NCBI RefSeq assembly: GCF_011745145.1
Contig: NZ_CP050191.1
Location: 1,710,381 to 1,774,380 of the forward strand
Direction: 5' to 3'
Length of the DNA: 64,000 bases
From: Mycobacterium sp. DL440
GTDB taxonomy: Bacteria > Actinomycetota > Actinomycetes > Mycobacteriales > Mycobacteriaceae
This document shows positions 15,657 to 32,464 of this stretch, in pieces. Both the position numbers and the translations under genes were made by a program. The notes under the pieces were generated by a model that worked only from the letters and a program-made list of their open reading frames with translations, had not been told where the DNA came from and did no database searches. Position 1 is the stretch's first letter; every line of letters starts with the position of its first letter.

Positions 15657-16223
15657 CTACGTTTTTGCGGACAGTCCGCGCAGGACAAACTGCTCGATGG
15701 CTGCCACCGGAAGATGGCGTGGCGCCAGGCACGCATGGATCAGCGACATCGTGGCGGCCTCGTCGTCGACGTTGAACTGCCCGTCGGCCACACCCTGCGC
15801 GAGGATCTCGCGCAGCACGTTCTCCACCGCCACCACGTGATCGCGGATGGCCAGCATGGTCTCGTTCGACAAGGCGCCATAGAGCTGCATGCCCATGCCC
15901 ATGTGGAATTCCTGCCCGGCTTCGAGCTGGTGCCGGATGTAAACCCTCAGTCGCCCAACGGGATCGTCCACCTCGGACAGGGCGTCGCGCAGCCCGTCGA
16001 GGTAGCGACTCGTCTCATGGGACGCGAATGCGATCACCACCGACTCTTTGTCCGGGAAGTGGTGATAGATCGCGGTCCGCCCGATGCCGGCCTCGGCCGC
16101 GAGCTTGGCCATCGTGATCGCGTCGAAGCTGTGCTCGGTCATCAGGGCGGCGAATGCCTCGAAGATGCGCTGCTGGATCTGCTCGCGGTGTTCTTCGACC
16201 GATGAGGCGCTGATCCTGGGCAC
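15657..16223 (-). CDS. TetR-family regulator
   Basis: This repressor has 188 aa. The N-terminal HTH (residues 15-60) ends in AAEAGIGRTAIYHHFPDKESV, typical of TetR. The C-terminal helical domain (about 75-185) is a ligand pocket; it has a Met-rich stretch (FHMGMGMQLYG) and an invariant-looking His pair near the end (HLPVAAIEQ). The start is GTG 16223, 5 bases after TAGACT. It lies upstream of the heme oxygenase with operators between the two genes, so it is likely to repress heme oxygenase, perhaps in response to heme. The ligand is inferred from the neighbour only. Confidence 0.9.
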   Translation of the reverse strand: MPRISASSVEEHREQIQQRIFEAFAALMTEHSFDAITMAKLAAEAGIGRTAIYHHFPDKESVVIAFASHETSRYLDGLRDALSEVDDPVGRLRVYIRHQLEAGQEFHMGMGMQLYGALSNETMLAIRDHVVAVENVLREILAQGVADGQFNVDDEAATMSLIHACLAPRHLPVAAIEQFVLRGLSAKT

Positions 16224-18518: not shown

Positions 18519-18674
18519 AATCGCACCTTCGAGCGGATGACGGGATTCGAACCCGCGACCCTCACCTTGGCAAGGTGATGCGCTACCAACTGCGCTACAT
18601 CCGCGCGCCACGAGCGAGATCGTCGCCCGTCGCGAAGCTGAACAGTAGTCGACCGAAGCGCACAGACACAAATC
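18519..18674. repeat. direct repeat, left copy (tRNA-Gly with promoter)
   Basis: Bases 18519-18635 are identical to 31573-31689 (117 bp), and the following 39 bases match 31690-31728 with about six mismatches. The repeat holds the whole tRNA-Gly gene and its -35/-10 region (TTGTGT ... TACTGT on the minus strand). The two copies are 13,054 bases apart and in the same orientation, bracketing an accessory block. Confidence 0.9.
18532..18604 (-). tRNA. tRNA-Gly (GCC)
   Basis: 73-base cloverleaf with acceptor stem GCGGATG/CATCCGC, anticodon loop CTTGCCAAG (anticodon GCC), T-loop GGTTCGAATCC and discriminator T; CCA is not encoded. A second identical gene lies at 31586-31658. Confidence 0.95.
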
Positions 18675-18739
18675 CATCGTTCTGATTTGCATTGTGGGGC
18701 AACATATACGGCGAGGCGGTCAGCTCGTAGGATTCCTGG

Positions 18740-20446
18740 ATGCCGCTCAACGTCGATGAGACGTTCTCCGTGTTCAGGATCATTCGACCGCTGGGGTCGG
18801 GCGCGACGGGGGAGGTCTACCTCGCTCAGCATCCCCGGCGTCGTGGCCGAGATGCGCTGACGGTGCTGCCCGACGATTGGTCCACTGAGCCCGAGTACCG
18901 GGAGCGGTTTTGCCGTGAAGCTGATTTGGCTGCCACGTTGTGGCATCCCAGCATTGCCAGGGTCCATGGTCGCGGGGAACGCGACGGTCGGCTCTGGATG
19001 TCGACGGACTTCGTCGAGGGCACGGATCTCGCTGGTCTCCTGGAACAGCGGTACCCCAACGGACTACCGCGCGAACAGGTTTTCCGCATCATCATCGCGG
19101 TTGCCGGTGCGCTCGACTACGCACACAAGCACGGTTCGCTACATCGCGACGTCAGACCGGCCAACATCATCCTCACCGACGTCGGCGGTGATGCGGAGCC
19201 GCACGCCGTTCTGGTCGACCTGGGTATCGCCCGCAACATCGGCGCCGTGGACAGGCCCGGCTATGGCGCACCCGAACAACTGATGGGGGAGGACGTCGAC
19301 GGCCGCGCAGACCAGTACGCCCTGGCCTGCACCGCCTACCACCTCTTGACCGGGATGCAGCTGTTCGCGCACGCCAATCCCGCTGTCGTGGTCAGTCGTC
19401 ACGTCAACTCCAAACCGCCGGCGTTGGCCGAAATGCGGCCCGAGCTGGCCGACCTCGACCCGGTGCTGGCGAAAGCCCTCGCCAAGAACCCGGCAGACCG
19501 ATTCATCAGCTGCGGTACTTTCGCGCACGCCCTGGCCGATGAAACCCCGTTACCCGCGCTGACTTTGGCGCAGGCACCGGCCGCGCCGGTGCACACGACC
19601 GGGTTTCGGTTACCCGACAAGCCAGGTTGGGTGCCCATAGCGGCGACCGCCGCCGTCTGCGTCATTGCCGGCGTCGGCATGTGGCAGCTGTGGCCATCCG
19701 CTGACGCCGCAGCGGGTGAGCAGCCGAGTCCACCGCCGAGCACAGCCGTTGCGAGCGCCACCAACGCCGCGGCCATCCCAGCGCCCAGCGGCCCGACCTT
19801 CGACGGCCTCTACCGCCTCGACTACGACAACCCCCACGCCACCCTCAACGGCAACCCCTGGCCCGCGGCCGGCAACCAAATCGCAAGCTACTGGTGGGCA
19901 TTCCGATCGACCTGTAAGCCCTCGGGATGTGTTTCGACGTCTACGCGCATGGACAGCATCAACCATGCCGTGCCCTACCTCGAGGGTGGCGGCATGACGG
20001 CCGTGTTCCGCTTCCTCAACAATGCTTGGCAGGGTGATCCCGGGAAAGGCTCACTTCCGTGCGAGGCGCCGAACGCCGGGCAAGCACAGGCAACGGACAC
20101 GGCATTGGCTTTGACGCCGCAGCCGGACGGCGGGCTGGCCGGCGCTCAAACCACCACCATCCAATCCAACGAGTGCGGGCTGCAAGGTGCGGTGATCACC
20201 GTGCCAGTTCTCGCCACGCGGCTCGAAGACGTCCCACCGGGTAACCCGGTCGCCGACCCTGCCGCGGTCGCTGAGCCGCTGACACCCGCTCCGCAATTGC
20301 CCCCGCCGGTACCGGTTGGCCCGCCGCCACTCGCGCCGCCTCCGCCACCGGTGTCGCCCGCCCCTCCAGTGGCGCCACCGCCGGCGATCGGCGCCATCAT
20401 CCCCAACCCCGTTCCGCCCGCCGCTCCGCCCCTCCCACCGGCATAG
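18740..20446 (+). CDS. receptor-type Ser/Thr kinase homologue, likely pseudokinase
   Basis: This protein has 568 aa. Residues 10-270 have the PknB-type kinase fold: Gly-loop LGSGATGEV, catalytic loop HRDVRPAN, then a DLG in place of DFG, and APE as GYGAPEQ. The beta-3 lysine that should stand in ALKVLP is Thr (ALTVLP), and the activation loop is short, without the usual TxT. A transmembrane helix (about 290-315) leads to an extracellular domain with paired cysteines (STCKPSGC, ECGLQG) and a Pro-rich tail. Mycobacterial receptor kinases with this outer domain sense envelope cues. TAGGAT 6 bases before ATG supports the start. Catalysis is probably impaired. Confidence 0.88.
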   Translation: MPLNVDETFSVFRIIRPLGSGATGEVYLAQHPRRRGRDALTVLPDDWSTEPEYRERFCREADLAATLWHPSIARVHGRGERDGRLWMSTDFVEGTDLAGLLEQRYPNGLPREQVFRIIIAVAGALDYAHKHGSLHRDVRPANIILTDVGGDAEPHAVLVDLGIARNIGAVDRPGYGAPEQLMGEDVDGRADQYALACTAYHLLTGMQLFAHANPAVVVSRHVNSKPPALAEMRPELADLDPVLAKALAKNPADRFISCGTFAHALADETPLPALTLAQAPAAPVHTTGFRLPDKPGWVPIAATAAVCVIAGVGMWQLWPSADAAAGEQPSPPPSTAVASATNAAAIPAPSGPTFDGLYRLDYDNPHATLNGNPWPAAGNQIASYWWAFRSTCKPSGCVSTSTRMDSINHAVPYLEGGGMTAVFRFLNNAWQGDPGKGSLPCEAPNAGQAQATDTALALTPQPDGGLAGAQTTTIQSNECGLQGAVITVPVLATRLEDVPPGNPVADPAAVAEPLTPAPQLPPPVPVGPPPLAPPPPPVSPAPPVAPPPAIGAIIPNPVPPAAPPLPPA

Positions 20447-20482
20447 TTGCCGACTCCGGTCGGCAACCGTATCTCAGCAGCT

Positions 20483-20923
20483 TCATTGAGAAGTGCCGCC
20501 CGGTAGCCACTTGCGCGACCTTCGACATCTGGACGGCGCAATGGCCGCGCAGACGCGAGACCGCGATCTTTCGTGCTCGTGCTCGTGATCGTCTTCCTGC
20601 GATGCGACTGTCACGTCATCAGCGCCGAGCGTCGAGGTGGGTTCGCGAGACGTGGAGTCTTTGTCGGTGATATGCGTCCACGCCCACCACGCTCCGAGGG
20701 CGGCGATGAGGGGAATGGAGACGAACCAGAACGACAACATGAATACCGGAGCCAGGTCCCACATCAGAAGGCCGACGTATTTGTTCGAGGACTGCGTCTC
20801 GACACCGCTACCGGGTGAGAGCGCCACGGCATAAACAACGATCACGGTCGCTACATAGATCACGAATGCTGTCCCGACAGTTGACCAGAACCATCGCCAC
20901 GCTGACGGCTTATTGAATCGCAT
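20483..20923 (-). CDS. small membrane protein, possible immunity protein
   Basis: This protein of 146 aa has two or three hydrophobic segments (FVIYVATVIVVYAVAL and FWFVSIPLIAALGAWWAW) and a charged His/Glu/Arg-rich tail. It resembles the next gene (21053-21385) in layout and in the ending of the last helix (IPLIAALGAWWAWTH versus VPLVAGITALVAYTH). It follows the EspC-like/WXG-like genes on the same strand after a gap of about 130 bases. A second immunity or accessory membrane protein is the best guess; no family is recognised. Confidence 0.6.
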   Translation of the reverse strand: MRFNKPSAWRWFWSTVGTAFVIYVATVIVVYAVALSPGSGVETQSSNKYVGLLMWDLAPVFMLSFWFVSIPLIAALGAWWAWTHITDKDSTSREPTSTLGADDVTVASQEDDHEHEHERSRSRVCAAIAPSRCRRSRKWLPGGTSQ

Positions 20924-21052
20924 CGTCTTGTACCTACAGTGGGGATACCGCTCCGAAACGCATCGGTGTGCACCCGCCAGTCCTAGGGCGCGCGGTTGCG
21001 GCTTGTCGGCGGCGATTAGTCGATAGCTTCACATTCAGGCCCCGGGAGTGGG

Positions 21053-21385
21053 CTACTGCTCGGGATTGTCTTCTGGCAAGGTGACTTTCGGGTCAACGGG
21101 CAGTGCGACTTCGTCGACGCCTACGTGGGTATAGGCGACCAGGGCTGTGATGCCGGCGACGAGTGGAACGCTCAGCGGCCAGGCGATGACGAGGTACATC
21201 GGTCCCCATAGCGTCAGACTAAGCAGCGCCAGGCGCACATATTCACCGCCCGATACCGGTTCGCCCTCGTGGTTGACAATAAACCCGATGCAGACCGCGA
21301 TACCAGTCAGTACGCAGCTCGCTAGCACCACAGCCACCAGTGACCGAAAAACGCGCCGCTTGGTCGGCTTGGAGAATGTGATCAT
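21053..21385 (-). CDS. small membrane protein, candidate immunity protein
   Basis: This protein of 110 aa has helices near residues 14-34 (SLVAVVLASCVLTGIAVCIG) and 50-85 and a short acidic tail. Its ATG overlaps the stop codon of the WXG-like gene as ATGA, so it is coupled to it. A small membrane protein directly after a Type VII effector candidate is the classic place for an immunity protein. It is a diverged paralogue of the downstream 146-aa protein. Confidence 0.7.
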   Translation of the reverse strand: MITFSKPTKRRVFRSLVAVVLASCVLTGIAVCIGFIVNHEGEPVSGGEYVRLALLSLTLWGPMYLVIAWPLSVPLVAGITALVAYTHVGVDEVALPVDPKVTLPEDNPEQ

Positions 21386-22767
21386 CGTCCCTCACTTACA
21401 TTGGGAATCAGGCCTTCTGAGGGATCAGTGAGCTTCGTGGTGTGCTGGTTGAACGGGTCCGGCGCGAACGGAATCGCGTTCTCTAGCTGCCACCGCCAGT
21501 CCGGGATATCGGGGCGCACGGGCGGGAGTGTGGCGTCGCCGATCCAGTGATGGCGCATCAGGCTGGTTGCCGGGCCAAGGTCACTGCCCGAGTTCGCTGG
21601 AGTCCATTGCAGCACCTCTGGCGGTATCCCTTCGCGATACTGGTACGTCTCCATGCTCGGGTAGATCGTTGTGTTACCGCCCAGGTTGACTGTGCCATTG
21701 TCTTGCGGGTCCAGAGTGATCCGACCGTTGACCGTCAAATCTAGCGCCACGCCTCCGGAAAATTCGTAGGCATCCCAGGTGTTGTAGTCGATCGTCATTC
21801 GTCCGTCAGGGGCTTCGACCACGTGGATCTGTGGTGGTGCGGTGTCGGCGCCGCCGCGTGCCCCGTCGACAGTGGTGGTGGGATTCTGCCGGATGGCGAC
21901 AACACCGTTCTCGTAATCCACGAAAAGTGATACACGAGAGTGTTCGGGATCGATGGTGGCACTTGGGCCACGATTGTCCCCGAAATTCTTCGGAAGCAGC
22001 CTCAAGTCGACTAGGTCCTGCAAGTCCTTTGGCATATTTTGTACCTCGGCCGCGGGGATGAACCAGTTGCTGCGGACCACGCCTTTGCCCGGCTGTGGGG
22101 TGAATCGGCCCGCGACGATCTCGGCAGGTTTTCCATGGTTCTTCGGGTTGTAGCTGTGGGGGTCCAGGCCGGCGGCCATCCGCCAATCGTTGGCAGTGAC
22201 CGGATCGCGACCGTAGATTTTCTTGAACGCTTCGATCTGATAGCGCGACCGCTCGTCGTTCTGGTTGATCGGGATGGTGGGCGGATTGCCCGGTTCATCG
22301 GTGCCGTCGAGCAGGTTGAGGCCGTGCGCCAGTTCGCGGTCGATCATTTCGGCAGAGGCTAAAAGCTGCTTGAGCGTCGTGGTGATGTAGTCGAGGTCGT
22401 CCTGGTTGACGTCATCAGTCAGCGGCGTCACCGTTCCGGTTTCGAGGTTGATATCGAACTTGCCGCGCGCCATTTCCTGCACGTTCTGCAGGAACGATTT
22501 GAGGCCGTCGATCTCATCGGCGGCCTTGGAGATGACCTTCGATGCCTCCTGGCGGGCAGCGACGTGGTTCGACAGATAGGTGCCGAGTTTGTCGAGGCTG
22601 TCGTTTGCAGCGTCTGCGGCCTGGCCGCTCCAGGTGCCGAGGATCGGGAGACCCCGGAGACCGTCCTTGACTCCGTCCATCGAACTGGAGCTGGTGTCTA
22701 GCGCTGTCGACACTTCCCGGACCTGTCCCGCATTCCACCGTTCGACGTCGGCGAGCGTCAGAGACAT
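21382..22767 (-). CDS. ESX-type (WXG/LXG-like) large effector candidate
   Basis: This protein has 461 aa. Residues 1-100 form a helical hairpin of the Type VII substrate kind (start MSLTLADVERWN, turn TWSGQAADAAN near residue 46), followed by another helical stretch (about 120-155). The C-terminal 290 residues form a globular domain (for example NDWRMAAGLDPHSYNPKNHG and VVRSNWFIPAAEVQN) that I cannot assign. Large mycobacterial proteins with this head are thought to be ESX-secreted. TGATG coupling to the EspC-like gene and ATGA coupling to a membrane protein give a partner-effector-immunity order. Toxicity is inferred, not shown. Confidence 0.75.
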   Translation of the reverse strand: MSLTLADVERWNAGQVREVSTALDTSSSSMDGVKDGLRGLPILGTWSGQAADAANDSLDKLGTYLSNHVAARQEASKVISKAADEIDGLKSFLQNVQEMARGKFDINLETGTVTPLTDDVNQDDLDYITTTLKQLLASAEMIDRELAHGLNLLDGTDEPGNPPTIPINQNDERSRYQIEAFKKIYGRDPVTANDWRMAAGLDPHSYNPKNHGKPAEIVAGRFTPQPGKGVVRSNWFIPAAEVQNMPKDLQDLVDLRLLPKNFGDNRGPSATIDPEHSRVSLFVDYENGVVAIRQNPTTTVDGARGGADTAPPQIHVVEAPDGRMTIDYNTWDAYEFSGGVALDLTVNGRITLDPQDNGTVNLGGNTTIYPSMETYQYREGIPPEVLQWTPANSGSDLGPATSLMRHHWIGDATLPPVRPDIPDWRWQLENAIPFAPDPFNQHTTKLTDPSEGLIPNVSEGR

Positions 22768-23075
22768 CAGAGGTTCTGGCGGATGCGGAGCAAGTCGACC
22801 GCTGCGTCCTGGTCGATGGTCTCGTACTTGTTGCCGATATGGCGGAACGCGTCACGATGATGGGTCAGTTCGCTGCTGATGTGATCGGCGACGGTCTGAA
22901 GATGGCTCAATTTGCCCTTGAGCACGTCACCCGATGATCCGACCCATCCCGAGCCGGCAGCTGCGATGTCGGCGTTTGCCGACTGCTGCGCCTGGGCGTG
23001 GTCGGCCTCGTGCATATCGAGGTGATCAGCGGACATGAACAGGTGCGTCGGATCGACTTTCAGCGACTGCGACAT
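22767..23075 (-). CDS. EspC/DUF2580-like ESX partner protein
   Basis: This helical protein of 102 aa matches the EspC/DUF2580 type of Type VII secretion target: the opening MSQSLKVDP, a central Trp-Gly turn (GSGWVGSSGDVLKGKL) near residue 45 and amphipathic helices on each side. Such proteins pair with a larger substrate for export. A strong ribosome site (GAGGGGGAAGC) precedes the ATG, and its stop overlaps the next start (TGATG). It heads the module described for the next genes. Confidence 0.8.
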   Translation of the reverse strand: MSQSLKVDPTHLFMSADHLDMHEADHAQAQQSANADIAAAGSGWVGSSGDVLKGKLSHLQTVADHISSELTHHRDAFRHIGNKYETIDQDAAVDLLRIRQNL

Positions 23076-23231
23076 TGCTTCCCCCTCAGTAAGCAGTGTT
23101 AGCTAAGTGCTTAGGCTACCTGGCTGCGGGTACCACGCTTCCCGCGGATTCCCGATCAAACGCAAAAGACGCCCCAGAGGGCTCAAGCCGACGGATAGTC
23201 ACGCACCGCAGACGGTTCGCGCAGGAGTGAC

Positions 23232-23476
23232 TGTGAAGTTTCACGAACGAGCCGAAGCCACGGCAGCTTAGTGATTCAGGGGTTACGTACTCCTGCACGA
23301 CGGAACCCGATGGCATCCTGGTCGTGACCGCGAAGATCCACGCTGGCGAATGGCGCGAGCGGTACAGCCCGACCGCACGGGAGTGGTACGAAGTGTTCAC
23401 ACCGAGTGCTGACGCCGAGCACTCCAGGCCCTGGCTGGCGTTCGGTCTCCACTCCTTTAGTCCGCCAAGGGACTAG
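23232..23476 (+). pseudogene. possible coding remnant within an otherwise gene-free gap
   Basis: The stretch 23076-23572 has no complete gene. Within it, one forward frame is open for about 80 codons to TAG 23476 and reads like protein (HAGEWRERYSPTAREWYEVF), but it has no upstream start and follows a stop. It may be the 3' remnant of a lost gene. The rest of the gap holds the EspC-like promoter region, including TTAGCTAA near 23100. Confidence 0.25.
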
Positions 23477-23572
23477 CACCGCCGCGTGTCCCGGATGCGT
23501 GTGAGAAACGTGCGGTGCGTTGATGTTCGGCCGGGGAGAATTAGGGTCGGTTCACTTCGGTTCGCGATCTCG

Positions 23573-24433
23573 CTACGCGCTCGCCGCATCATCGCGACCG
23601 TTCGGTGGATGATCCCGGGTTGATTCCGCATCGTGCTCTGAAAGCTGTCGAGCAACCCACGTTCGATACCGAGCGACCTCTTCATCGAACTCCGTGTGGC
23701 GCTGGTTGAGCGGGCTTGAAGGCCCTGGCAATCCGGCTAGCTCACGCAGTATTGGCTGGAAGTCCGGGACGAGTCCCTTGTGGCAGGTGCCGCAGAGAGT
23801 AACGAGATTTTCTTCTGCTGTCGGACCGTCCATTCGCCGTGGAATGAGGTGATGGACATGCAATTCCAGATCGATGTGATCCTTTGCCCTGCGGCCGCAT
23901 ATCACGCACCGGTAGTTGTCGCGTTTGAGCACCCGCATGCGCAGGGTGCGGTTGGGGGCACGACGCTCGATCGCTTGGTCCGAGAAATGATCAGTCCCAA
24001 GGAAGCCAAATCCACCGACCTCTACGGCACCGTCGTGCATGCACTCGTAGGGACCGATCACGTCTGGCAGGTGAGCCTCGGCGTATCCCTTTTCGACCAG
24101 TGCGTGTCCGCCCTGTCGGAGGAAGAGGGCAAAGGCTAGATCGTCATGTATGACGATCCAGTCCTGCTTCTGGTCCGTCCATAACCATATGAACCAGCTT
24201 GCATCGACGAGGCTGGCTTCCCGAATTTCCCAGCGAGGGTTTCGCTTGGACCAACCGACAAAGTGCGTGTGTTTTCCCCAGAAGGGGTTTCCCCGACGAT
24301 CCGCTCCCAGCCTGAGAGCAAAGTACTTCTCGTCAGGACGATTGGTTTTCAGATCTCGAACCCACACAACATCATCAGCTTCTCCAAGCGACCCGTCCTT
24401 CATATGGGCCAGTGTTCCACTGAGCGCCGACAC
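23573..24433 (-). CDS. HNH endonuclease-domain protein
   Basis: This protein has 286 aa. The C-terminal third carries a complete HNH nuclease: CVICGRRAKDH, then ELHVHHLIPRRMDGP, ENLVTLCGTCHKG, giving two CxxC pairs and the HH catalytic region. The N-terminal 170 residues are unlike any family I know and may recognise substrate or signal. HNH modules of this form occur in restriction, toxin and homing contexts. It lies next to a SEFIR/TIR protein on the same strand (193-base gap), inside the accessory block, so a defence role is possible. The start may be ATG 24433 or the ATG 10 codons later. Confidence 0.8.
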   Translation of the reverse strand: MSALSGTLAHMKDGSLGEADDVVWVRDLKTNRPDEKYFALRLGADRRGNPFWGKHTHFVGWSKRNPRWEIREASLVDASWFIWLWTDQKQDWIVIHDDLAFALFLRQGGHALVEKGYAEAHLPDVIGPYECMHDGAVEVGGFGFLGTDHFSDQAIERRAPNRTLRMRVLKRDNYRCVICGRRAKDHIDLELHVHHLIPRRMDGPTAEENLVTLCGTCHKGLVPDFQPILRELAGLPGPSSPLNQRHTEFDEEVARYRTWVARQLSEHDAESTRDHPPNGRDDAASA

Positions 24434-24626
24434 AGTTGATCAGCTACGTGCACTGCTGCTGCTAATTCGACACGCAGAAACCGACCAAAGCGGAGCTACT
24501 TCGACTGAGGTAGTTCGACAAACTGGGGTTGCGGAAGTACTGCATCTGATCGCCCCCTTCCGTTGTTCTCCAAATACCTCAGGTTTGTCCCTCGGAGAAT
24601 GCAGGTCAGCTGCCGCGTTCCGCGAT

Positions 24627-25604
24627 TCAGGTTGTCGACGCACTGCCCGGGAAAGCGAAGTCGCTTAGGTCCGGTTTTCGGTTGGGTTGGATCGCGTAGC
24701 GGAACTCGACGATATCCTCGCGATTGAGGGGTCCCTGGCGCTGGTAGAGCTTGTCGATGTAGACGAGCGCCCAGAACCCTTTGTGGTTGTGAAGCACAAA
24801 GGCATCTCCGACGTTGGCGTAGACGACCCGGTTACTGGTCTCGAACTGAGACACGTCCGCCAGCAGTTCGGTATGTTCCCGCATTTTGTTGAAGGCGGCT
24901 ACGTGGGCGATGTCGGCAGGATCGCGATATATGCGGAGACCGCTGAGGCCGAGCCAGTCGATGTCCAGGGTGAATTGCGAATCGCCTGACCCGATCTTGT
25001 AGTGCCCGCTGTTTTGTGAACACACAAATTCGACGTCGCCGTGAAACGCAGGGTTGTGCCAGCGGCTCGGCGAGTTCCTGATGGCAAGCGTCGCTTCGAC
25101 GGAGGTGCGTCCCTCAAATGGATTGGTACCGAGTGGCGGTACGGCGTCGACGGGCACACCGTGGATATTGCGCAGGAGGCGTTCGTACGCGGACTCCTCG
25201 ATGCTGTCGTTGCGGAAGTCTTCCCAGAGCTGGCCGCTGAGGAATGCTGGCAGTTCGGCCTGTGGGTTGTTTCTGAGTATGGGGATGATCGCGTTGGACG
25301 CGTTGGTACCCATTTGGCTGTACAACCGGGATGAGAGCATTTGCGCCTCGACGCCGGCGCCGCCGCTGCGGTCGTCACATTTGCGGGTGTAGTTTTCGGA
25401 TACCACGGCGATTACGCGGTAGTCGTCGCTGGCAGCGCGTTCCATGAAGAGCGAAAGGTTGCCGCCCAGGGTGACGTCCCATCTGTCGAGGCAGACGTCA
25501 ACCCCGTTCCCGCGCAGTCTGGTGGCGAGCTTCAAAACCCAGTCCGCATGCTCCTCGTCGTCGTGCGAATAGGACATGAACACGCGAGGCGCAACGGAGG
25601 TCAC
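24627..25604 (-). CDS. SEFIR/TIR-domain protein
   Basis: This protein has 325 aa. Residues 1-150 form a SEFIR/TIR domain: RVFMSYSHDDEEHADWVLKL, then VDVCLDRWDVTLGGNL and VIAVVSENYTRK. Bacterial TIR domains often cleave NAD+ or signal with cyclic ADP-ribose in anti-phage systems. The C-terminal 170 residues are a separate domain of unknown type (WALVYIDKLYQRQG near the end). I chose the GTG at 25604 (VTSVAPRVF) because it opens right at the domain and has a CAGAAT -10-like hexamer 7 bases before it. It is divergent from a helical protein across a perfect palindrome. Confidence 0.82.
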   Translation of the reverse strand: MTSVAPRVFMSYSHDDEEHADWVLKLATRLRGNGVDVCLDRWDVTLGGNLSLFMERAASDDYRVIAVVSENYTRKCDDRSGGAGVEAQMLSSRLYSQMGTNASNAIIPILRNNPQAELPAFLSGQLWEDFRNDSIEESAYERLLRNIHGVPVDAVPPLGTNPFEGRTSVEATLAIRNSPSRWHNPAFHGDVEFVCSQNSGHYKIGSGDSQFTLDIDWLGLSGLRIYRDPADIAHVAAFNKMREHTELLADVSQFETSNRVVYANVGDAFVLHNHKGFWALVYIDKLYQRQGPLNREDIVEFRYAIQPNRKPDLSDFAFPGSASTT

Positions 25605-25666
25605 GCAGCCTATTCTGCGGCATAGCCGTCGGGCGCTTGAGAGATCCCCCGAGGTCTCGTCATGAC

Positions 25667-25694
25667 CCCATGCACGCGAATTCGCGTGCATGGG
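25667..25694. repeat. perfect 28-bp palindrome in divergent promoter
   Basis: CCCATGCACGCGAA (25667-25680) is followed directly, with no spacer, by its exact reverse complement (25681-25694). It sits between the divergent SEFIR/TIR gene and the 176-aa gene. A spacer-free palindrome of this size is suited to a dimeric DNA-binding protein or a cruciform rather than to an RNA terminator. Confidence 0.85.
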
Positions 25695-25793
25695 CGACCT
25701 GCACATTCTCTATGAGGTACGTGTCCAGAGTTGCGTCCATCATGAACGTGACCTGGCGTAACGTGTCGGTGCCTTCCGATACCGTGCTGCGGC

Positions 25794-26324
25794 ATGACTG
25801 ACAACGACGTCCTGAATGCCGAATACCGCGCGTTCGTGCGACAACTCCATGAGCAGACCATCGCGATTGTTGCCGAGGCCGATCGCTATTGGAACCGGGA
25901 GCTGTTTCGCGAGGTAGCCATGTTCACGGCTGGTGTATTCGACCGCGAATACGACGAAGCCCAGCAGAAAGAGGTCTGGGACCGTGCCATGGAGCTCCAG
26001 GACCGATTGCAGAACGACATCCAGCCGAAGCTAAACATCCTGGCGTTTGGGCATCCCGATCCTGATGTGCGGCGTGCGGCCGACATCTTCAGCCGGCGGC
26101 TGCAGGGAGTGGTTTTCTATCACGACGTCATCCATGCGCGACGTCGTGAGGGTGAACATGCGACGACAGCAATCCAGTTGGCGCACCGGGGATTGACAGA
26201 ACTTCGGCGGGCTGCCTATCACGCACCGTTCCAAGTTGAACGTCCTCAACCTGAGTACGACGGGAATTCGGTGCACGAGCCGATGGCGAGTCAGCTGACT
26301 GACGTTCCGCCCGAGGAGTGGTGA
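25794..26324 (+). CDS. helical protein of unknown function
   Basis: This protein of 176 aa is almost wholly charged alpha-helix, with no signal or membrane segment. I recognise no family. A TACCGT -10 lies 8 bases before the ATG. It is divergent from the SEFIR/TIR gene, and the shared 28-bp palindrome suggests co-control, so it could be a partner or regulator of that protein. Confidence 0.65.
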   Translation: MTDNDVLNAEYRAFVRQLHEQTIAIVAEADRYWNRELFREVAMFTAGVFDREYDEAQQKEVWDRAMELQDRLQNDIQPKLNILAFGHPDPDVRRAADIFSRRLQGVVFYHDVIHARRREGEHATTAIQLAHRGLTELRRAAYHAPFQVERPQPEYDGNSVHEPMASQLTDVPPEEW

Positions 26325-26404
26325 ACCGGGGCAGTTGCAGGGCGCATTTACCTCCCGGCCCTGAGCTGGGACAATGAAGTGACTCCGACCGAAGGGCGGG
26401 TGTG

Positions 26405-26570
26405 ATGCGGTACTTCACCGATGGCGCCGGCCACATTGCCCGGGTGCATACCGATGCGCCCTTCGGGCCGGAATTCTCAGAGGCGAAGGCTGCAGACCTA
26501 CAACGCCAAGCGTGACCGCTGGGTCGACGCACCTGGGCTGACCACAGAGCTGCGATTCACCGGCATCTAG
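26405..26570 (+). pseudogene. frameshifted small gene
   Basis: The first frame from ATG 26405 (GTG at 26402 also possible) encodes MRYFTDGAGHIARVHTDAPF... and stops early at about 26515. A second frame continues smoothly with YNAKRDRWVDAPGL and ends at TAG 26570. Together they make one plausible small protein of about 55 aa, so a frameshift near 26480-26490 has broken it, or the sequence has an indel error. Function unknown. Confidence 0.55.
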
Positions 26571-26629
26571 GATCCGTCGGAATGATGTTCAAAGGTGCAG
26601 GTCAGGGGGGCAGGGTTACGCTTTCGTGC

Positions 26630-26848
26630 GTGAAGTACTGGATGGAGCAGTTTGGGCAAGGTGCCTTGCTGATTCGTGCTGCCTCCGACCCGCTGGAGAA
26701 CTTTGACCTCGTTCCGCAGATCTGGGACTGGGATCGGCGGCAGTGGGTCGATGACGACGATGTCGTGGACGAGATGCAGTGGGATCCGAACATCCGGTCG
26801 GTGTCGGAGGATCAGGTCCTGGCCGTGCTCGGGGAACGCGTACGGTGA
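26630..26848 (+). CDS. small acidic protein of unknown function
   Basis: This acidic protein has 72 aa (for example QIWDWDRRQWVDDDDVVDE). TACGCT 7 bases before GTG 26630 supports this start over an in-frame ATG at 26582. The motif DRRQWVDD echoes KRDRWVDAP in the broken gene just upstream, so the two may be distant relatives. Its stop overlaps the next start as GTGA. No family recognised. Confidence 0.55.
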   Translation: MKYWMEQFGQGALLIRAASDPLENFDLVPQIWDWDRRQWVDDDDVVDEMQWDPNIRSVSEDQVLAVLGERVR

Positions 26849-26988
26849 TCGACGACGAGTTGTCTCCGCGGTCGGTGCCTCTCACTTATGAGGGGCTGGT
26901 AGCCCGCAAGCGGGATGCGGAGCGGTTGCTGGGCGTCAAGCTGCCGGTGTCGAACTACGAGCAGCGACTACGGGACTCAGCCCAGTAG
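26845..26988 (+). CDS. 47-aa protein coupled to the preceding gene
   Basis: This frame runs from GTG 26845 to TAG 26988 and overlaps the preceding stop as GTGA. The product is a mostly charged helix (VARKRDAERLLGVKLPVSNY). Two tiny coupled genes could form a toxin-antitoxin-like or partner pair, but nothing in the sequence proves it. Confidence 0.5.
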   Translation: MIDDELSPRSVPLTYEGLVARKRDAERLLGVKLPVSNYEQRLRDSAQ

Positions 26989-27357
26989 GTGGCCGAAGCC
27001 TTGGTCTCGTAGCGAGTACTCCGTCATCGGCGCTGGCGGATGGGTGGCGAGCCAGTCACAGATGCCGGTCTCCTGGTCGGCTGCACTGGCGTCATCCAGG
27101 TGAAGGTGCCTCAGGATCGCACGTACGGGTCGAGAGTGGACCAGCGATGAAGGCCTACCCTGGCGCGCGTGCCGCAGGAGAACACTCGTCGGGATGAGTA
27201 TGCGTCGCCGTGCTCGCTATGACCGGGTGTCGGACCTCGCCGATAGCCTTTGCGATCGAATAGCGTTGCGGCGATCTGCAACAACACGGTTGGCGATCCT
27301 GACGTGATCACCAATCGCAGTGACCTAGGGTGAACGCAACGGACTTCGAGGTGATGC
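26989..27357. other. intergenic stretch, no gene seen
   Basis: I find no convincing gene on either strand here. The last 15 bases include GAGGTG, the probable ribosome site of the three-Cys gene. Confidence 0.5.
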
Positions 27358-28104
27358 ATGGCTGACCGATCGGCGATCGAATGGACCGAAGCCACCTGGA
27401 ACCCCGTCACCGGCTGTGACCGCGTTTCCGCGGGCTGCGACCACTGTTACGCCATGACGTTGGCAAAACGGTTGAAGGCCATGGGATCCGCAAAGTATCA
27501 GAATGACGGTGACCCGCGCACGTCGGGACCGGGCTTCGGCGTCACCGTCCATCCGCAAGCACTCGATGAGCCGCGCCGCTGGCGCCAACCGCGCGTTGTA
27601 TTCGTGAACTCGATGTCGGACCTGTTCCACGCGCGCGTGCCGATCGGCTTTATCCGGGACGTTTTCGACGTGTGCCGCGACACGCCTCAGCACACCTATC
27701 AGGTGCTGACCAAGCGCAGCTTGCGGCTGCGCCGACTCGGCGAAAGTCTCGACTGGCCAAGCAATCTGTGGATGGGCGTGTCGGTCGAAAACTCGGATGC
27801 GTTGCCGCGCGTCGACCATCTTCGCGACGTTCCCGCGGCCGTCCGATTCTTGTCGTGTGAGCCACTGATAGGACCTCTCGACGGACTCAACCTCGACGGG
27901 ATTCACTGGGTAATCGCCGGGGGCGAGTCCGGCGTGAATCATCGCCCGCTCGATGGCGAATGGGTACGCGGCATCCGGGACGACTGCCGAGACGCAGGAG
28001 TCGCGTTCTTCTTCAAGCAGTGGGGCGGGCGGACTCCAAAGGCTGAAGGCCGGGAACTAGACGGACGGTTGTGGGACGAGATGCCATTACGCGCCGCTAT
28101 CTGA
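27358..28104 (+). CDS. three-Cys-motif protein (Gp37/Gp68, DUF5131 family)
   Basis: This protein of 248 aa belongs to the phage Gp37/Gp68-like family. Near residue 20 it has the three-cysteine motif TGCDRVSAGCDHCYA, resembling a radical-SAM or iron-sulfur binding site. Family landmarks follow: VVFVNSMSDLFH, YQVLTKR, MGVSVEN, LSCEPLIGPL and VIAGGESG. The biochemical activity is not known. Its 3' end overlaps by 8 bases the convergent gene for TcmP, the partner that recurs beside this family in many bacteria, so the two probably form one system. Confidence 0.88.
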   Translation: MADRSAIEWTEATWNPVTGCDRVSAGCDHCYAMTLAKRLKAMGSAKYQNDGDPRTSGPGFGVTVHPQALDEPRRWRQPRVVFVNSMSDLFHARVPIGFIRDVFDVCRDTPQHTYQVLTKRSLRLRRLGESLDWPSNLWMGVSVENSDALPRVDHLRDVPAAVRFLSCEPLIGPLDGLNLDGIHWVIAGGESGVNHRPLDGEWVRGIRDDCRDAGVAFFFKQWGGRTPKAEGRELDGRLWDEMPLRAAI

Positions 28105-29215
28105 GCGGCGGGAACGTGATCTTGACGCGATCGGGGAAGGTTCCCGCCCGCGATTGACCCTCGCACGAGATTCTTCCGGCCGCTTGGAGCGGTATTAGGC
28201 CATGTCTGCGCATCATGCTTGGTGGATAGTCGGTACTGACGAGGACAAAGTTCTTGATATCGGGTGCGCTGACGGTGGTCCCTGCAAACCTGCGCATGAT
28301 CAGGTCTTGCAGATTCTGCGCGTGAAACGTGCTCGGGTCGAACAACGTATCTAAATCGGCAGTGAGGTCGGAGAACATTCGGCCGTTGTCGGCATCGACC
28401 TTCCACATGGCTTCCTTCATGAGTTCCAGACCCCTCACATGACGGGTGCCGTAAAAGAGGAAGTAGCTGGTTCGGTTCTTGGCGTTGACCATTTCGAAGT
28501 CCAACACGTACGGGAAGTTGCAGACATCACGGATCTGTCGCGCGTAGAGGTCGCGCAGGAACTCCTTTCGTCCCGATCCGAGTGGGGCTTGCTCGAATTC
28601 GGTCGTACCAAAAAGTTCGGTTAAAGAGTGACGGGTGCCCTCGAAGGTCGTCCAGCGCTGAATTGCGTTGTAAGAGAACAGAACAAACAACTCACAACCA
28701 GGGTCTTGGAGAAGGTCGCGCAACGTCGCGAGAGGCAGACCAGTCCATCCGAACGGGTCAACAAAGGCAAAGATCGGAGCCAGTCGGCGTCCGGCCTCTT
28801 TGGACATCGTGATCAGATGCTGAGCGGTGTCGTCGAAACTGCCGCATGACACGTTGGGCTCTGCAATGTGCGCAGGCCACTTGCCGCCGCGAGAGTCTTT
28901 CTCGACGGCCAAAACTCGGGTGAGCTGGTCCGTGCGTGCTTCATTGTCATCGTTGAACAGAAAAAGGAACTGCTTGCCGGACATGTTCTTGCCGTAAGTG
29001 TGATCGAGCAGCGTCCTGAGCGCGATGAGGGGGGACCCCGGCTCCCCGTCTTCGTAGGTGCCTGGGCCACAATAGCCGTCAAGGTAGATGACTTTTTGGT
29101 GGTAGCTGGTCATGATCGGAAACCAGCCGCCGAGGTAGCGCCGGAGCAACTCATGCTTCGCGAGGGTGTGCGGTTCCGCTGCCCACACCGTGTCGTAGTT
29201 ATCGCCCGCCACCAA
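28097..29215 (-). CDS. tcmP: three-Cys-motif partner protein TcmP
   Basis: This protein of 372 aa matches TcmP: LAKHELLRRYL near the start, a Rossmann/methyltransferase-like glycine stretch (YLDGYCGPGTYEDG) near residue 45, FAFVDPFGWTGLP near 150, and an FVLFSYNAIQRW region. The DPFG element recalls a methyltransferase or nuclease active site, but the activity is unproven. It is convergent with the three-Cys-motif gene (8-base overlap), instead of the more usual same-strand order. It lies inside the accessory block, which fits a mobile defence or modification pair. Confidence 0.85.
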   Translation of the reverse strand: MVAGDNYDTVWAAEPHTLAKHELLRRYLGGWFPIMTSYHQKVIYLDGYCGPGTYEDGEPGSPLIALRTLLDHTYGKNMSGKQFLFLFNDDNEARTDQLTRVLAVEKDSRGGKWPAHIAEPNVSCGSFDDTAQHLITMSKEAGRRLAPIFAFVDPFGWTGLPLATLRDLLQDPGCELFVLFSYNAIQRWTTFEGTRHSLTELFGTTEFEQAPLGSGRKEFLRDLYARQIRDVCNFPYVLDFEMVNAKNRTSYFLFYGTRHVRGLELMKEAMWKVDADNGRMFSDLTADLDTLFDPSTFHAQNLQDLIMRRFAGTTVSAPDIKNFVLVSTDYPPSMMRRHGLIPLQAAGRISCEGQSRAGTFPDRVKITFPPLR

Positions 29216-29368
29216 CCAACCCCCGACTCCTCGAATGTCCGCTGCGATCGTAATTGGCGACGTCGACGAGGTCGCGCATCACGCGCCCAGAACCGGGCAA
29301 ATCGCTTTAGTACACAGTCTTGAGATGTCGGATTCGAAGTATCCTAATTCGGTGCTCGGAGAGTGCCT

Positions 29369-30562
29369 ATGACACCCGAAGTCTGGAAGCCGGTGGTTGT
29401 CGGCTGGGACAGTCTCTACGAAGTGTCTTCGCATGGGCGGCTTCGGTCGTTAGACCGAGTGGTCTCAGGACGAGCAGGTTCTCAAAACATTCGCCGAGGG
29501 AAGATCCTGAAGCCCAAGCGGCACCGCACCGGGCACGAATCGTATGGACTATCGAGGGAAGGTAATTCGACCTTCCGGTTTATTCACGCACTGGTGCTGG
29601 AAGCGTTTGTAGAGCCACGCCCCGCTGGCTTCTTGGGTTGCCATAACGATGGCGACCCGTCCAACAACCGGATTGAGAACCTGCGCTGGGACACTCCACA
29701 GAGTAATTCGTTGGACGCTGTCAAGCATGGGACGCAGCGATCTCAGAAAGGCCCGCGCGAATTTGAGTACGAGTACGAGAGCATTGCGGGCGAGGAGTGG
29801 CGCCCGGTCGTAGGCTACGAGAGCCTATACGAGGTGTCCTCCCACGGCCGCGTGAGGATCCTGGGCCGAATTGTCAACGGCAGGGGCGGTTCACGTTATT
29901 TTCGCCGCGGTCATCTCAAGAGCCTTGCCATCAGTTCGTATGGATACCAGACAGTCCATTTGGCAAAGGACGGCCAGAAGGCATCGCCGCCCGTCCACAC
30001 CATCGTGCTGGAAGCGTTTGTCGGTCCGCGCCCTGACGGAATGGTGGGTTGCCATAACGATGGCGACCCGTCCAACAATCGGTTCGACAACCTCCGTTGG
30101 GACACTCCGGAAAACAACGCTCGCGACACCGTAGTGCATGGCACTCATCCGATGTCCAGTAAGACCCATTGCAAGCACGGCCATGAGTTCACCGTCGAGA
30201 ACGTGATGATTAATCGCAACGGCCACCGTGCATGCCGTGCATGTTCCGCCGCAGCGGTGCTCCGCCGCCGACCGCTATCCCCCCGCGGCCACATGAGGGA
30301 TAGAACTCACTGTCCGCGCGGGCATGAGTACACGCCGGACAACACGATAATCGACGTGTCTGGATCAAAGCGGTCACGTTCGTGCAGGACATGCCGGAAT
30401 GACCGCAAACGTCAAAAGACTGCCGTAAGCCGTCAAGCTATCACTCCCCGGCCGTGCGAACAGTGCGGGAAATTGATGGAAGCAAAGCGTTCCGACGCTC
30501 GCACCTGCAGCCACGCCTGCCGCGCGGCCGCCCGTCGCGAGCGCCTCGCGTCAGGCAAATGA
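29369..30562 (+). CDS. tandem NUMOD4-HNH homing-type endonuclease
   Basis: This protein has 397 aa and two copies of a NUMOD4 + HNH_3 unit. Copy 1 (about residues 4-120) and copy 2 (140-258) both contain LYEVSSHGR and GCHNDGDPSNNR ... NLRWDTP. The C-terminal part has three Cys/His zinc-finger-like modules (HCKHGHEF ... CRAC; HCPRGHEY ... CRTC; CEQCGK ... CSHACR). Single-unit relatives are HNH homing endonucleases of phages and introns. The repeat is visible in DNA too: a 32-base run starting at 29635 recurs 411 bases on. GGAGAG before ATG 29369 favours this start over GTG 29363. Confidence 0.85.
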   Translation: MTPEVWKPVVVGWDSLYEVSSHGRLRSLDRVVSGRAGSQNIRRGKILKPKRHRTGHESYGLSREGNSTFRFIHALVLEAFVEPRPAGFLGCHNDGDPSNNRIENLRWDTPQSNSLDAVKHGTQRSQKGPREFEYEYESIAGEEWRPVVGYESLYEVSSHGRVRILGRIVNGRGGSRYFRRGHLKSLAISSYGYQTVHLAKDGQKASPPVHTIVLEAFVGPRPDGMVGCHNDGDPSNNRFDNLRWDTPENNARDTVVHGTHPMSSKTHCKHGHEFTVENVMINRNGHRACRACSAAAVLRRRPLSPRGHMRDRTHCPRGHEYTPDNTIIDVSGSKRSRSCRTCRNDRKRQKTAVSRQAITPRPCEQCGKLMEAKRSDARTCSHACRAAARRERLASGK

Positions 30563-30650
30563 AAGCGATCTTTGACGGGTCGAGGACACGGCCGATGCGA
30601 TGCTTCGCGCCTCGCCGCGGTCTGGAAACCGGAAGTTCTAATCTGGCCCT

Positions 30651-31220
30651 ATGAAGCTTGAGCAGGTGCGGATCCGCGCCGCCTACCACGAGGCAGGGCA
30701 CGCCGTGGCATCGATGCGGCGCGGCGGATACGTGACATACATCAATCTGACGGACCCGGCGAAGCACTTGCAGGAGACCTCCACTGACGATCAAGCCGCC
30801 GACCAGGCGTTCAAAGTCTGGGCAGGTCCCTGGACTCGGGCGCGGTGGGAGGCCAACCCGACGACGCAACGAGTAGTGGAGATCTTCCAGACGCAGAGTT
30901 TCTTCGACTGGAAATTCTATGAGAAGCGCTTCGGTAACGATGTCGACGCGTGGGTGGATGCGGCGGAAGATGCTCTTAAGTCGGGGCTACCCATGCCCGC
31001 GGACCCGCCATCGGTTACGCCGCCTTGCCCTGGCTGGGCGTCGGAGCTTGAACAAGCCTGGCCCGAAATAGAGGAGCTAGCCAAGAAATTGATTCGCCGC
31101 AAACAACGCATCGAGCTGAGCAACGGTCGGATCCTCTCGAAGGACGGCCTGCACAACCAGTGGGCGGACTTCGACCACCCGAAGATCGTCGACGACTCCA
31201 GCCTGCCCGCCGTCAGGTGA
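30651..31220 (+). CDS. small HEAGH-motif putative metalloprotease
   Basis: This protein of 189 aa opens with AAYHEAGHAVASM, an HExxH zinc site of the FtsH/M41-like type, at residues 10-20. The remainder is helical, without an AAA+ ATPase, and lacks an obvious third-ligand motif I can name. TAATCT ends 6 bases before ATG 30651. Such free-standing peptidase-like proteins occur in defence and phage-related islands. Catalytic activity and substrate are unknown. Confidence 0.65.
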   Translation: MKLEQVRIRAAYHEAGHAVASMRRGGYVTYINLTDPAKHLQETSTDDQAADQAFKVWAGPWTRARWEANPTTQRVVEIFQTQSFFDWKFYEKRFGNDVDAWVDAAEDALKSGLPMPADPPSVTPPCPGWASELEQAWPEIEELAKKLIRRKQRIELSNGRILSKDGLHNQWADFDHPKIVDDSSLPAVR

Positions 31221-31386
31221 ACCGGGCAAACGCGCCGGGTTGCTAGGGCCACCGCTCATTCGATGGTGCCGGGCGCCGATGCACGGTAAGCCTCTCAAGC
31301 ACGCGCCCAGCCTCGAAGATGCTCCGGAGTATTGGGCACACACTCTCGGACAAGTCTGCGAAAGCGGCTTTGAACAGGTAAAACTC
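31221..31386. other. intergenic stretch before the tRNA cluster
   Basis: No gene is seen. It is the 3' flank of tRNA-Val and the end of the accessory block; no integrase or attachment core stands out. Confidence 0.4.
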
Positions 31387-31461
31387 TGGTGCGCGATACT
31401 GGGATTGAACCAGTGACCTCTTCCGTGTCAGGGAAGCGCTCTCCCGCTGAGCTAATCGCGC
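31387..31461 (-). tRNA. tRNA-Val (GAC)
   Basis: 75 bases including encoded CCA; acceptor GCGCGAT/ATCGCGC, anticodon loop with GAC, T-loop GGTTCAATCC. Last of a Gly-Cys-Val series on the minus strand. Confidence 0.95.
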
Positions 31462-31478
31462 GGGTTGAAACTCTTTCT

Positions 31479-31552
31479 TGGAGGTGGAGACGGGAATCGA
31501 ACCCGTGTGCACGGCTTTGCAGGCCGTTGCCTCACCACTCGGCCACTCCACC
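31479..31552 (-). tRNA. tRNA-Cys (GCA)
   Basis: 74 bases with encoded CCA; acceptor GGTGGAG/CTCCACC, anticodon loop CTGCAAA (GCA), T-loop GGTTCGATTCC. It lies between tRNA-Gly and tRNA-Val. Confidence 0.95.
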
Positions 31553-31572
31553 ACTGGGGTTTTGATGCCACA

Positions 31573-31728
31573 AATCGCACCTTCGAGCGGATGACGGGAT
31601 TCGAACCCGCGACCCTCACCTTGGCAAGGTGATGCGCTACCAACTGCGCTACATCCGCGCGCCACGAGCGAGATCGTCGCCCGTCGCGATGCAGAACATT
31701 AGTCCACCGATGCGCGCAGACACAAATC
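31573..31728. repeat. direct repeat, right copy (tRNA-Gly with promoter)
   Basis: Second copy of the 156-bp repeat (117 bp identical to 18519-18635, then 39 bp diverged at about six positions). Its -10 reads TAATGT with -35 TTGTGT 18 bases upstream on the minus strand, driving the Gly-Cys-Val tRNA series. Confidence 0.9.
31586..31658 (-). tRNA. tRNA-Gly (GCC), second copy
   Basis: Identical in sequence to 18532-18604; anticodon GCC. It heads the Gly-Cys-Val series, which resembles the mycobacterial glyV-cysU-valV group, so this is probably the ancestral copy. Confidence 0.95.
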
Positions 31729-31767
31729 CCCATTACGAGCGGGCAACGCGCGGCCAAAGACGGTGTT

Positions 31768-32389: not shown

Positions 32390-32464
32390 GGTCTCGTAGC
32401 TCAGTGGGAGAGCGTCCGCCTCACACGCGGAAGGTCGCTGGTTCGAACCCAGCCGGGACCACCA
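32390..32464 (+). tRNA. tRNA-Val (CAC)
   Basis: 75 bases with encoded CCA; acceptor GGTCTCG/CGGGACC (one G-T pair), anticodon loop CTCACAC (CAC), T-loop GGTTCGAACCC. Confidence 0.95.

Follow-up and report, generated by a model that had tools for sequence, protein, structure and literature searches.

An anti-phage-type gene block between two tRNA-Gly genes of Mycobacterium sp. DL440 as the probable remnant of an insertion at tRNA-Val

Among the closest described systems to the locus studied here is phiRv2 of Mycobacterium tuberculosis, which sits in valU of the Gly-Cys-Val tRNA operon, where 28 nt of the tRNA end are present twice (available part of PMC3861185), and is described as similar to phage-inducible chromosomal islands (PICIs) in the available part of PMC10654092. 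The same portion of that paper places candidate PICIs of Mycobacterium and prophages with PEST (ESX-secreted toxin) modules, small islands with integrase and capsid genes, at tRNA genes, reports ESX-type modules near integration functions, and predicts tRNA-Lys or tmRNA, not tRNA-Val, as attB for prophages of the fortuitum-smegmatis group. SEFIR defence systems are reported to act via NAD+ depletion (accessible passages of PMC12774641 and PMC12322248), and the three-Cys-motif partner TcmP has one table line without a functional claim in the accessible text of PMC12445080. Insertion of the phiRv2 type at this tRNA is already known, as are PICIs and the defence families. We analyzed a window of 64,000 nt from Mycobacterium sp. 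DL440 (contig NZ_CP050191.1, positions 1,710,381–1,774,380), in which an accessory block lies between two tRNA-Gly genes and borders tRNA-Val(gac). We put the probability at roughly 0.7 that this block is what remains of a locked-in insertion at tRNA-Val, with bSEFIR, DUF5131/TcmP and HNH cargo, in a layered interval. The block lies at the same tRNA operon as phiRv2, as described in those excerpts, and on this reading would share the tRNA-Val 3′ end as insertion site. Unlike phiRv2-like and PICI elements it lacks an integrase, a capsid gene and attL, and compared with the PICIs and PEST prophages of the available text the window has a WXG module but few phage-related open reading frames (ORFs) among those scanned (DUF5131, HNH types and a SEFIR domain). 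The portions of the literature searched described neither a defence island at this tRNA-Val in the M. fortuitum group nor a duplicated Gly-Cys-Val cluster; the supplementary lists of PICI and phiRv-like elements in PMC10654092 may include such elements.

We evaluated the tRNA-Val(gac) 3′ end as an insertion site in collections holding one genome per species (L numbers denote loci and G numbers genomes). The gene lies at 31387–31461 on the minus strand, and its last 22–23 nt (31387–31409) are the integration core in relatives, where the variable DNA lies between a protein kinase gene and this end. Of 148 genus genomes sampled, 126, among them that of the window, contained the exact 22-nt end, and 32 had it at least twice; among the 32, G119 has two full tRNA-Val genes and some assemblies have the copies on different contigs. 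Twenty loci from 19 of these genomes were fetched, selected for two copies on one contig, and 19 encoded a related integrase (the exception is L153; for L150 only the integrase end was in reach). In M. fortunisiensis (L060/L081, G049), an element between kinase and tRNA-Val has the final 23 nt of the tRNA gene at both ends, 11.9 kb from each other, and encodes a tyrosine integrase immediately inside the end nearer the kinase. Among the matches listed, this integrase reached about 38% identity to mycobacteriophage integrases and 49.6% to one unclassified phage record. The 150 ORFs from 17 element loci gave 23 integrase matches, 11–12 capsid matches and a few to tape-measure, prohead protease and terminase proteins, and PADLOC recognized 28 defence families in element-locus ORFs, with one protein each among the families listed (25 of 28). 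The 21-nt phiRv2 repeat printed in the available part of PMC3986857 was found in reverse complement in the G140 element. Sequence comparison thus marks the tRNA-Val(gac) 3′ end as a hotspot for phiRv2-like (PICI-like) elements, presumably by recombination there. One further locus (L138/L139, G146:C1:976452–1009151) holds four tRNA-Val ends in 33 kb, with an integrase right after each of the first three, and apparently represents three elements stacked in one site.

Directly beside its tRNA-Val, at 31329–31386 (no strand assigned), the window has a segment detected by pattern matching to the arms of these elements. It comprises GTATTGGGCAC, which is also found in element arms, with TTGGGCAC starting 55 nt from tRNA-Val. 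TTGGGCAC occurred 35–65 nt before the tRNA-Val end in 15 of 148 genomes (reversed control, 0). Besides the window, five genomes have the exact spacing of 55 nt: G118, G024 and G044 at an intact tRNA-Val and G140 and G146 at partial ends. No integrase was found in any of six fetched arm-only loci of other genomes (16–18 kb each, one tRNA-Val end), so arms without an integrase recur. A terminator-like site stands beside tRNA-Val in M. porcinum, and none was found beside the window's tRNA-Val; the hairpins there had −14.7 kcal/mol or lower in eight of nine arm-less clade loci (leaving out L135, a second copy of L049), −11.1 in L059 and −9.4 in the window. That the window lost a native terminator is only suggestive, and the missing terminator was weakened as a sharp test, with some element arms carrying a hairpin and the L059 hairpin weak. 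We consider it likely, not proven, that the segment is the attR-like arm of a decayed insertion.

Base composition delimits the accessory DNA. In 1-kb bins, G+C was 0.57–0.63 across 21–32 kb and mostly 0.64–0.71 elsewhere, with a few bins at 0.61–0.63. G+C at third codon positions was 0.62–0.78 in 11 ORFs (20.5–31.2 kb) and 0.82–0.88 in five flank genes, a comparison that left out tex. The kinase gene (18740–20446, G+C 0.678) lies before the low-G+C stretch, so that the low-G+C accessory DNA between the Gly copies starts only at about 20.5–21 kb. A previous sequence-only reading had called the whole interval unlike its flanks. This holds for the lower G+C from about 20.5–21 kb on, but not for the kinase, the first gene of the interval, which has the same place in 13 loci of relatives and is therefore not foreign in the same sense. 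The stretch from 23.2 to 31.4 kb matched none of 15 clade loci at the DNA level (E 1e-4).

We next turn to the two tRNA-Gly genes that bracket the interval. The direct repeat at a spacing of 13,054 bp on which the sequence-only reading was built is real: 18519–18675 and 31573–31729, both on the minus strand, are 157 nt long and 96% identical, share a run of 117 identical nt and contain complete, identical tRNA-Gly(gcc) genes at 18531–18604(−) and 31585–31658(−). In this genome (6.38 Mb, one contig), seven of nine repeat matches are weak ones at other tRNA genes. By tRNA and repeat detection, the right copy holds the first gene of the minus-strand Gly-Cys-Val cluster, with tRNA-Cys(gca) detected at 31479–31552(−); the left tRNA-Gly is solitary and stands back to back, with its upstream region, against the Ser/Thr protein kinase gene (plus strand, Pfam PF00069), which is common to the clade and lies between both tRNA-Gly copies.

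A scan of named genomes with the kinase protein gave 30 loci, a set in which entries for the genome of the window may be missing. Thirteen (L049–L061) have a close kinase (best-segment identity 70–85%) and belong to M. fortuitum-group relatives (M. peregrinum, M. porcinum, M. senegalense, M. septicum, M. setense, M. frederiksbergense, M. fortunisiensis and further strains). The kinase adjoins tRNA-Gly in all 13, and both Gly copies lie inside the fetched 21 kb in ten; for L052, L056 and L060 only the left copy was in reach, and the right copy of L056 and L060 was read in G128 and G049. No tRNA-Gly was present in the 14 tRNA-scanned loci out of 17 with distant or short kinase matches. The Gly–Gly spacing is 14.1 kb in G049, 14.5 kb in G128 and 2.2–2.4 kb in the empty sites L049, L054, L055 and L059, all four of which retain both copies. 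No empty site with a single Gly copy was found among these relatives; they were located via the kinase, a route that would overlook any relative in which the entire interval is gone. The claim of an accessory block at a tRNA locus is thus borne out by block-less sites in relatives. Two complete Gly-Cys-Val clusters stand in L049 (repeat of 379 bp, 95%) and L054 (338 bp, 99%), and 21 of 21 non-clade loci (L016–L037 without L021) have a single Val-Cys-Gly cluster within their 2–3 kb, where the flanking gene abh gave no DNA match. A close kinase was found in nine of the 148 genus genomes, including the window's own, and all nine have two Gly copies.

Mean identity was 97.8% among right Gly copies and 91.1% among left copies, with the tRNA-Gly body unchanged in 11 of 11 aligned left, 11 of 11 right and five of five single copies. 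Of six differences between the window's two repeat copies, the left-copy base at 18636 recurs in five other left copies, one right copy and one outgroup copy, and that at 18645 in two further left copies and none of the right ones. Because two whole clusters are kept in L049 and L054, the window repeat looks, as far as sequence can tell, like the leftover of an old, decayed duplication of the cluster, and the left tRNA-Gly has the look of an additional functional gene. We therefore rejected the Gly repeats as island ends, since they are older than the block and are kept in the block-less relatives located via the kinase. Two assemblies merit separate mention. G044, one of the non-clade genomes, has two full Gly-Cys-Val clusters (L127 and L024, contigs C32 and C120), each with its own tRNA-Val(cac) and no close kinase; either the assembly is mixed or the cluster was duplicated separately there. 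In M. fortunisiensis (G049, L081 about 15944–16195) part of the right tRNA-Gly region recurs on the two sides of a stretch of N, and the assembly is uncertain there.

The presumed insertion cargo occupies about 8.2 kb. It opens with an HNH endonuclease gene (23573–24433, −; PF01844), followed by a bSEFIR-type protein of putative anti-phage activity (24627–25706, −; PADLOC bSEFIR PDLC03957, 6.1e-63, model positions 36–264 of 412; SEFIR and TIR_2 domains). The database entry for this protein from this genome has 325 aa, i.e., an internal start, and most top homologues have 307–338 aa. The next ORF (25794–26324, +) had no Pfam, PADLOC or NCBIfam match and a weak one to phrog_16904. A DUF5131 (phage Gp37/Gp68) gene (27358–28104, +; PF07505, 4e-101; PADLOC PDC-M41B/M30B) and a TcmP gene (28097–29215, −; TIGR04474, 8e-56; PADLOC PDC-M30A) provide both partners of the PDC-M30 candidate, adjacent and full length; the same pair is found on a Rhodococcus plasmid. 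They differ from that candidate in being convergent, with tails overlapping by 8 bp. An HNH endonuclease gene with two NUMOD4-HNH units follows (29363–30562, +; PF07463 and PF13392, two stretches each; phrog_1492), its doubled units mirroring an internal DNA repeat of 152 nt at 74%, and a 189-aa ORF nearest the attR-like arm (30651–31220, +) has an 80% homologue in Mycobacterium sp. AT1. In G064, a 73–74% relative of the window's HNH gene lies directly beside tRNA-Met (L183, 7474–8608), which suggests another tRNA-linked island.

The sequence-only reading had described these genes as defence-like and partly broken. PADLOC upheld the former with bSEFIR and both members of the PDC-M30 pair. The latter was not confirmed: the SEFIR, TcmP, HNH and 30651–31220 ORFs have full-length homologues (SEFIR and TcmP at up to 82% and 93%), and DUF5131 spans its whole Pfam model. 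This comparison left out ORFs 25794–26324 and 26582–26848, and in these, as at about 26.3–27.3 kb, where there is no clear gene, gene decay may have occurred. At the DNA level, the DUF5131 gene is about 76% identical to Gordonia phage genes, and the HNH region has short segments similar to HNH genes of mycobacteriophages; 23.25–27.3 kb had no phage match. No phage or plasmid record covered 80% of the cargo, and the records listed (15 of 75 and 15 of 119) contained single cargo genes or the DUF5131/TcmP pair only. Searches of the genus with the cargo likewise returned single genes only. A weak match of the HNH protein to a terminase small subunit family falls on its HNH domain, and the block ORFs scanned gave no convincing packaging match.

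Between kinase and cargo lies a WXG/ESX-type module, all on the minus strand. It consists of a WXG100 protein (22767–23075; PF06013 above cut-off), a 461-aa protein with a WXG-type N-terminus resembling ESX-secreted proteins (21382–22767; weak WXG100 match below cut-off; 89–94% in L082 and L053) and two paralogous small membrane-like proteins (31% identity, E 8e-12), one beside the WXG gene (21053–21385; 88% in M. porcinum L053) and one farther out (20483–20923; 58% relative in G128). The 21053 type occurs in M. porcinum and the 20483 type in G128; the window has both. The small proteins are inferred to be immunity-like, and as a pair downstream of a WXG-type gene they resemble the stacked immunity genes of a polymorphic ESX module. 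The stretches 20,563–20,958 and 20,991–23,194 are partly or wholly common to G128, M. porcinum or M. peregrinum at 77–92%, so this DNA would predate the rest or travel separately.

Under the reading we prefer, the Gly-Cys-Val cluster, which sequence comparison shows to be duplicated around the kinase in the M. fortuitum group, would have been duplicated once in an ancestor, and most members would then have lost the left Cys and Val genes and kept the left Gly, giving today's repeat. A WXG100/ESX-type module, whole or partial, stands between kinase and tRNA-Val in some members. Elements of the phiRv2 type with a tyrosine integrase stand at the tRNA-Val(gac) 3′ end, flanked on both sides by its 22–23 nt, presumably after recombination there, and the 8.2 kb at about 23.2–31.4 kb would be the remnant of one or more such insertions, with the attR-like arm surviving and attL and integrase lost. 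The loss of both would have locked in the bSEFIR, DUF5131/TcmP and HNH genes. Judged from its families, the cargo, DUF5131/TcmP included, would be anti-phage, bSEFIR acting via NAD+ depletion and abortive infection. Gly–Gly recombination would have no role.

Several observations weigh against this reading. Within 18676–31386 no attL-like core was found (the best candidate had 8 mismatches in 23 nt, against a mean of 8.4 in 200 shuffles), and the exact tRNA-Val core occurs once in the genome. As the sequence-only reading had observed, no integrase is visible: tblastn with 19 element integrases found no remnant in the block (best window match E 0.023, outside the block). In those block ORFs that were scanned, neither Pfam nor PHROGs gave a phage structural gene. 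The arm lacks the first unit of the usual arm repeat, and two of its five exact 55-nt matches (G140 and G146) are at partial tRNA ends. Strong hairpins also occur in the arms of L058, L082, L140 and L152. Among 127,850 positions scored with a 75-nt profile of the arms, the window arm came first (18.8); the profile also gives two arm-less clade loci 19.0 and 18.6, and so does not discriminate. Finally, cargo proteins were not found in the 30 other loci (E 1e-5) except for the WXG module and adjoining small proteins in L082 and L053, homologues of the 30651 ORF stood at tRNA-Val in none of four fetched loci, and the HNH-gene homologue, from one fetched locus, adjoins tRNA-Met instead. That the block carries the usual cargo of tRNA-Val elements was accordingly unsupported, with none of the fetched cargo relatives at tRNA-Val. 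A rival reading is accretion, in which the cargo genes came singly by other routes and the attR-like arm is the relic of an earlier, cargo-unrelated element. The fetched cargo relatives are located elsewhere in other genomes, the block has no integrase or second core, and the WXG module and cargo differ in distribution. However, the arm lies only about 110 nt from the last cargo ORF and G+C is low over the whole stretch, and we regard accretion as unlikely, though it deserves to be kept in view.

The sequence-only reading had proposed a block that is mobile or can be excised, with the tRNA-Gly copies as the ends at which homologous recombination moves it; we consider this very improbable. Identical 117-nt stretches 13 kb apart could recombine, but the kinase has a Gly copy on either side with or without further DNA in between, the left copies share changes, and integrase genes in sister genomes stand at tRNA-Val. 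Both persist around the kinase in the block-less relatives located via that gene, with the left tRNA gene intact in every left copy aligned, which is largely what that reading had said would refute it. Such a deletion would also be costly. It would take kinase, block, tRNA-Val and tRNA-Cys, the last two lying within the interval as stated. An Rfam scan gave 48 tRNA matches, five in the window, and the anticodons of the other 43 were read except for the weak match L230. One Val(gac) gene was found in the genome; the gene for Val(cac) lies beyond the interval, at 32390 of the window, and that for Val(tac) is elsewhere. We rejected the idea that the deletion would remove the sole tRNA-Cys gene, as a second, diverged tRNA-Cys(gca) exists far from the cluster (G000:C1:2436894–2436964, L221; 84% over 61 nt, low score). 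Because the only tRNA-Val(gac) gene found would go, a loss that we infer to be lethal or very costly, Gly–Gly excision is unlikely. A different question, compatible with insertion at tRNA-Val as we favor it, is how the duplication arose. An element that captured the tRNA operon beside its own attB may have brought kinase and second cluster. The duplicated stretch of L054 begins 1 nt from the tRNA-Val 3′ end, an integration edge, and every close-kinase genome has two Gly copies; against this, the L049 duplication extends 39 nt beyond that edge, no integrase was found at L049 (tblastn on the matching G119 stretch), and G044 has two full clusters on two contigs without a close kinase, from a mixed assembly or a kinase-independent duplication. 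We treat this origin as a tentative minority option. Somewhat more doubtful is its extended form, in which a phage satellite carried off operon and kinase and gave the M. fortuitum-group ancestor a second working tRNA operon. The spare operon would have relaxed the cost of insertion and so made the site a satellite trap, where satellites lose their integrase and defence and ESX cargo become fixed.

The analysis places a defence-gene island of a rapidly growing mycobacterium at the tRNA operon in which phiRv2 lies in M. tuberculosis. With elements encoding related integrases occupying the tRNA-Val site in many sampled genus genomes, this site gives a precise place to search for new mycobacterial anti-phage genes. 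The locus also teaches that repeats bracketing an island are not necessarily its ends.

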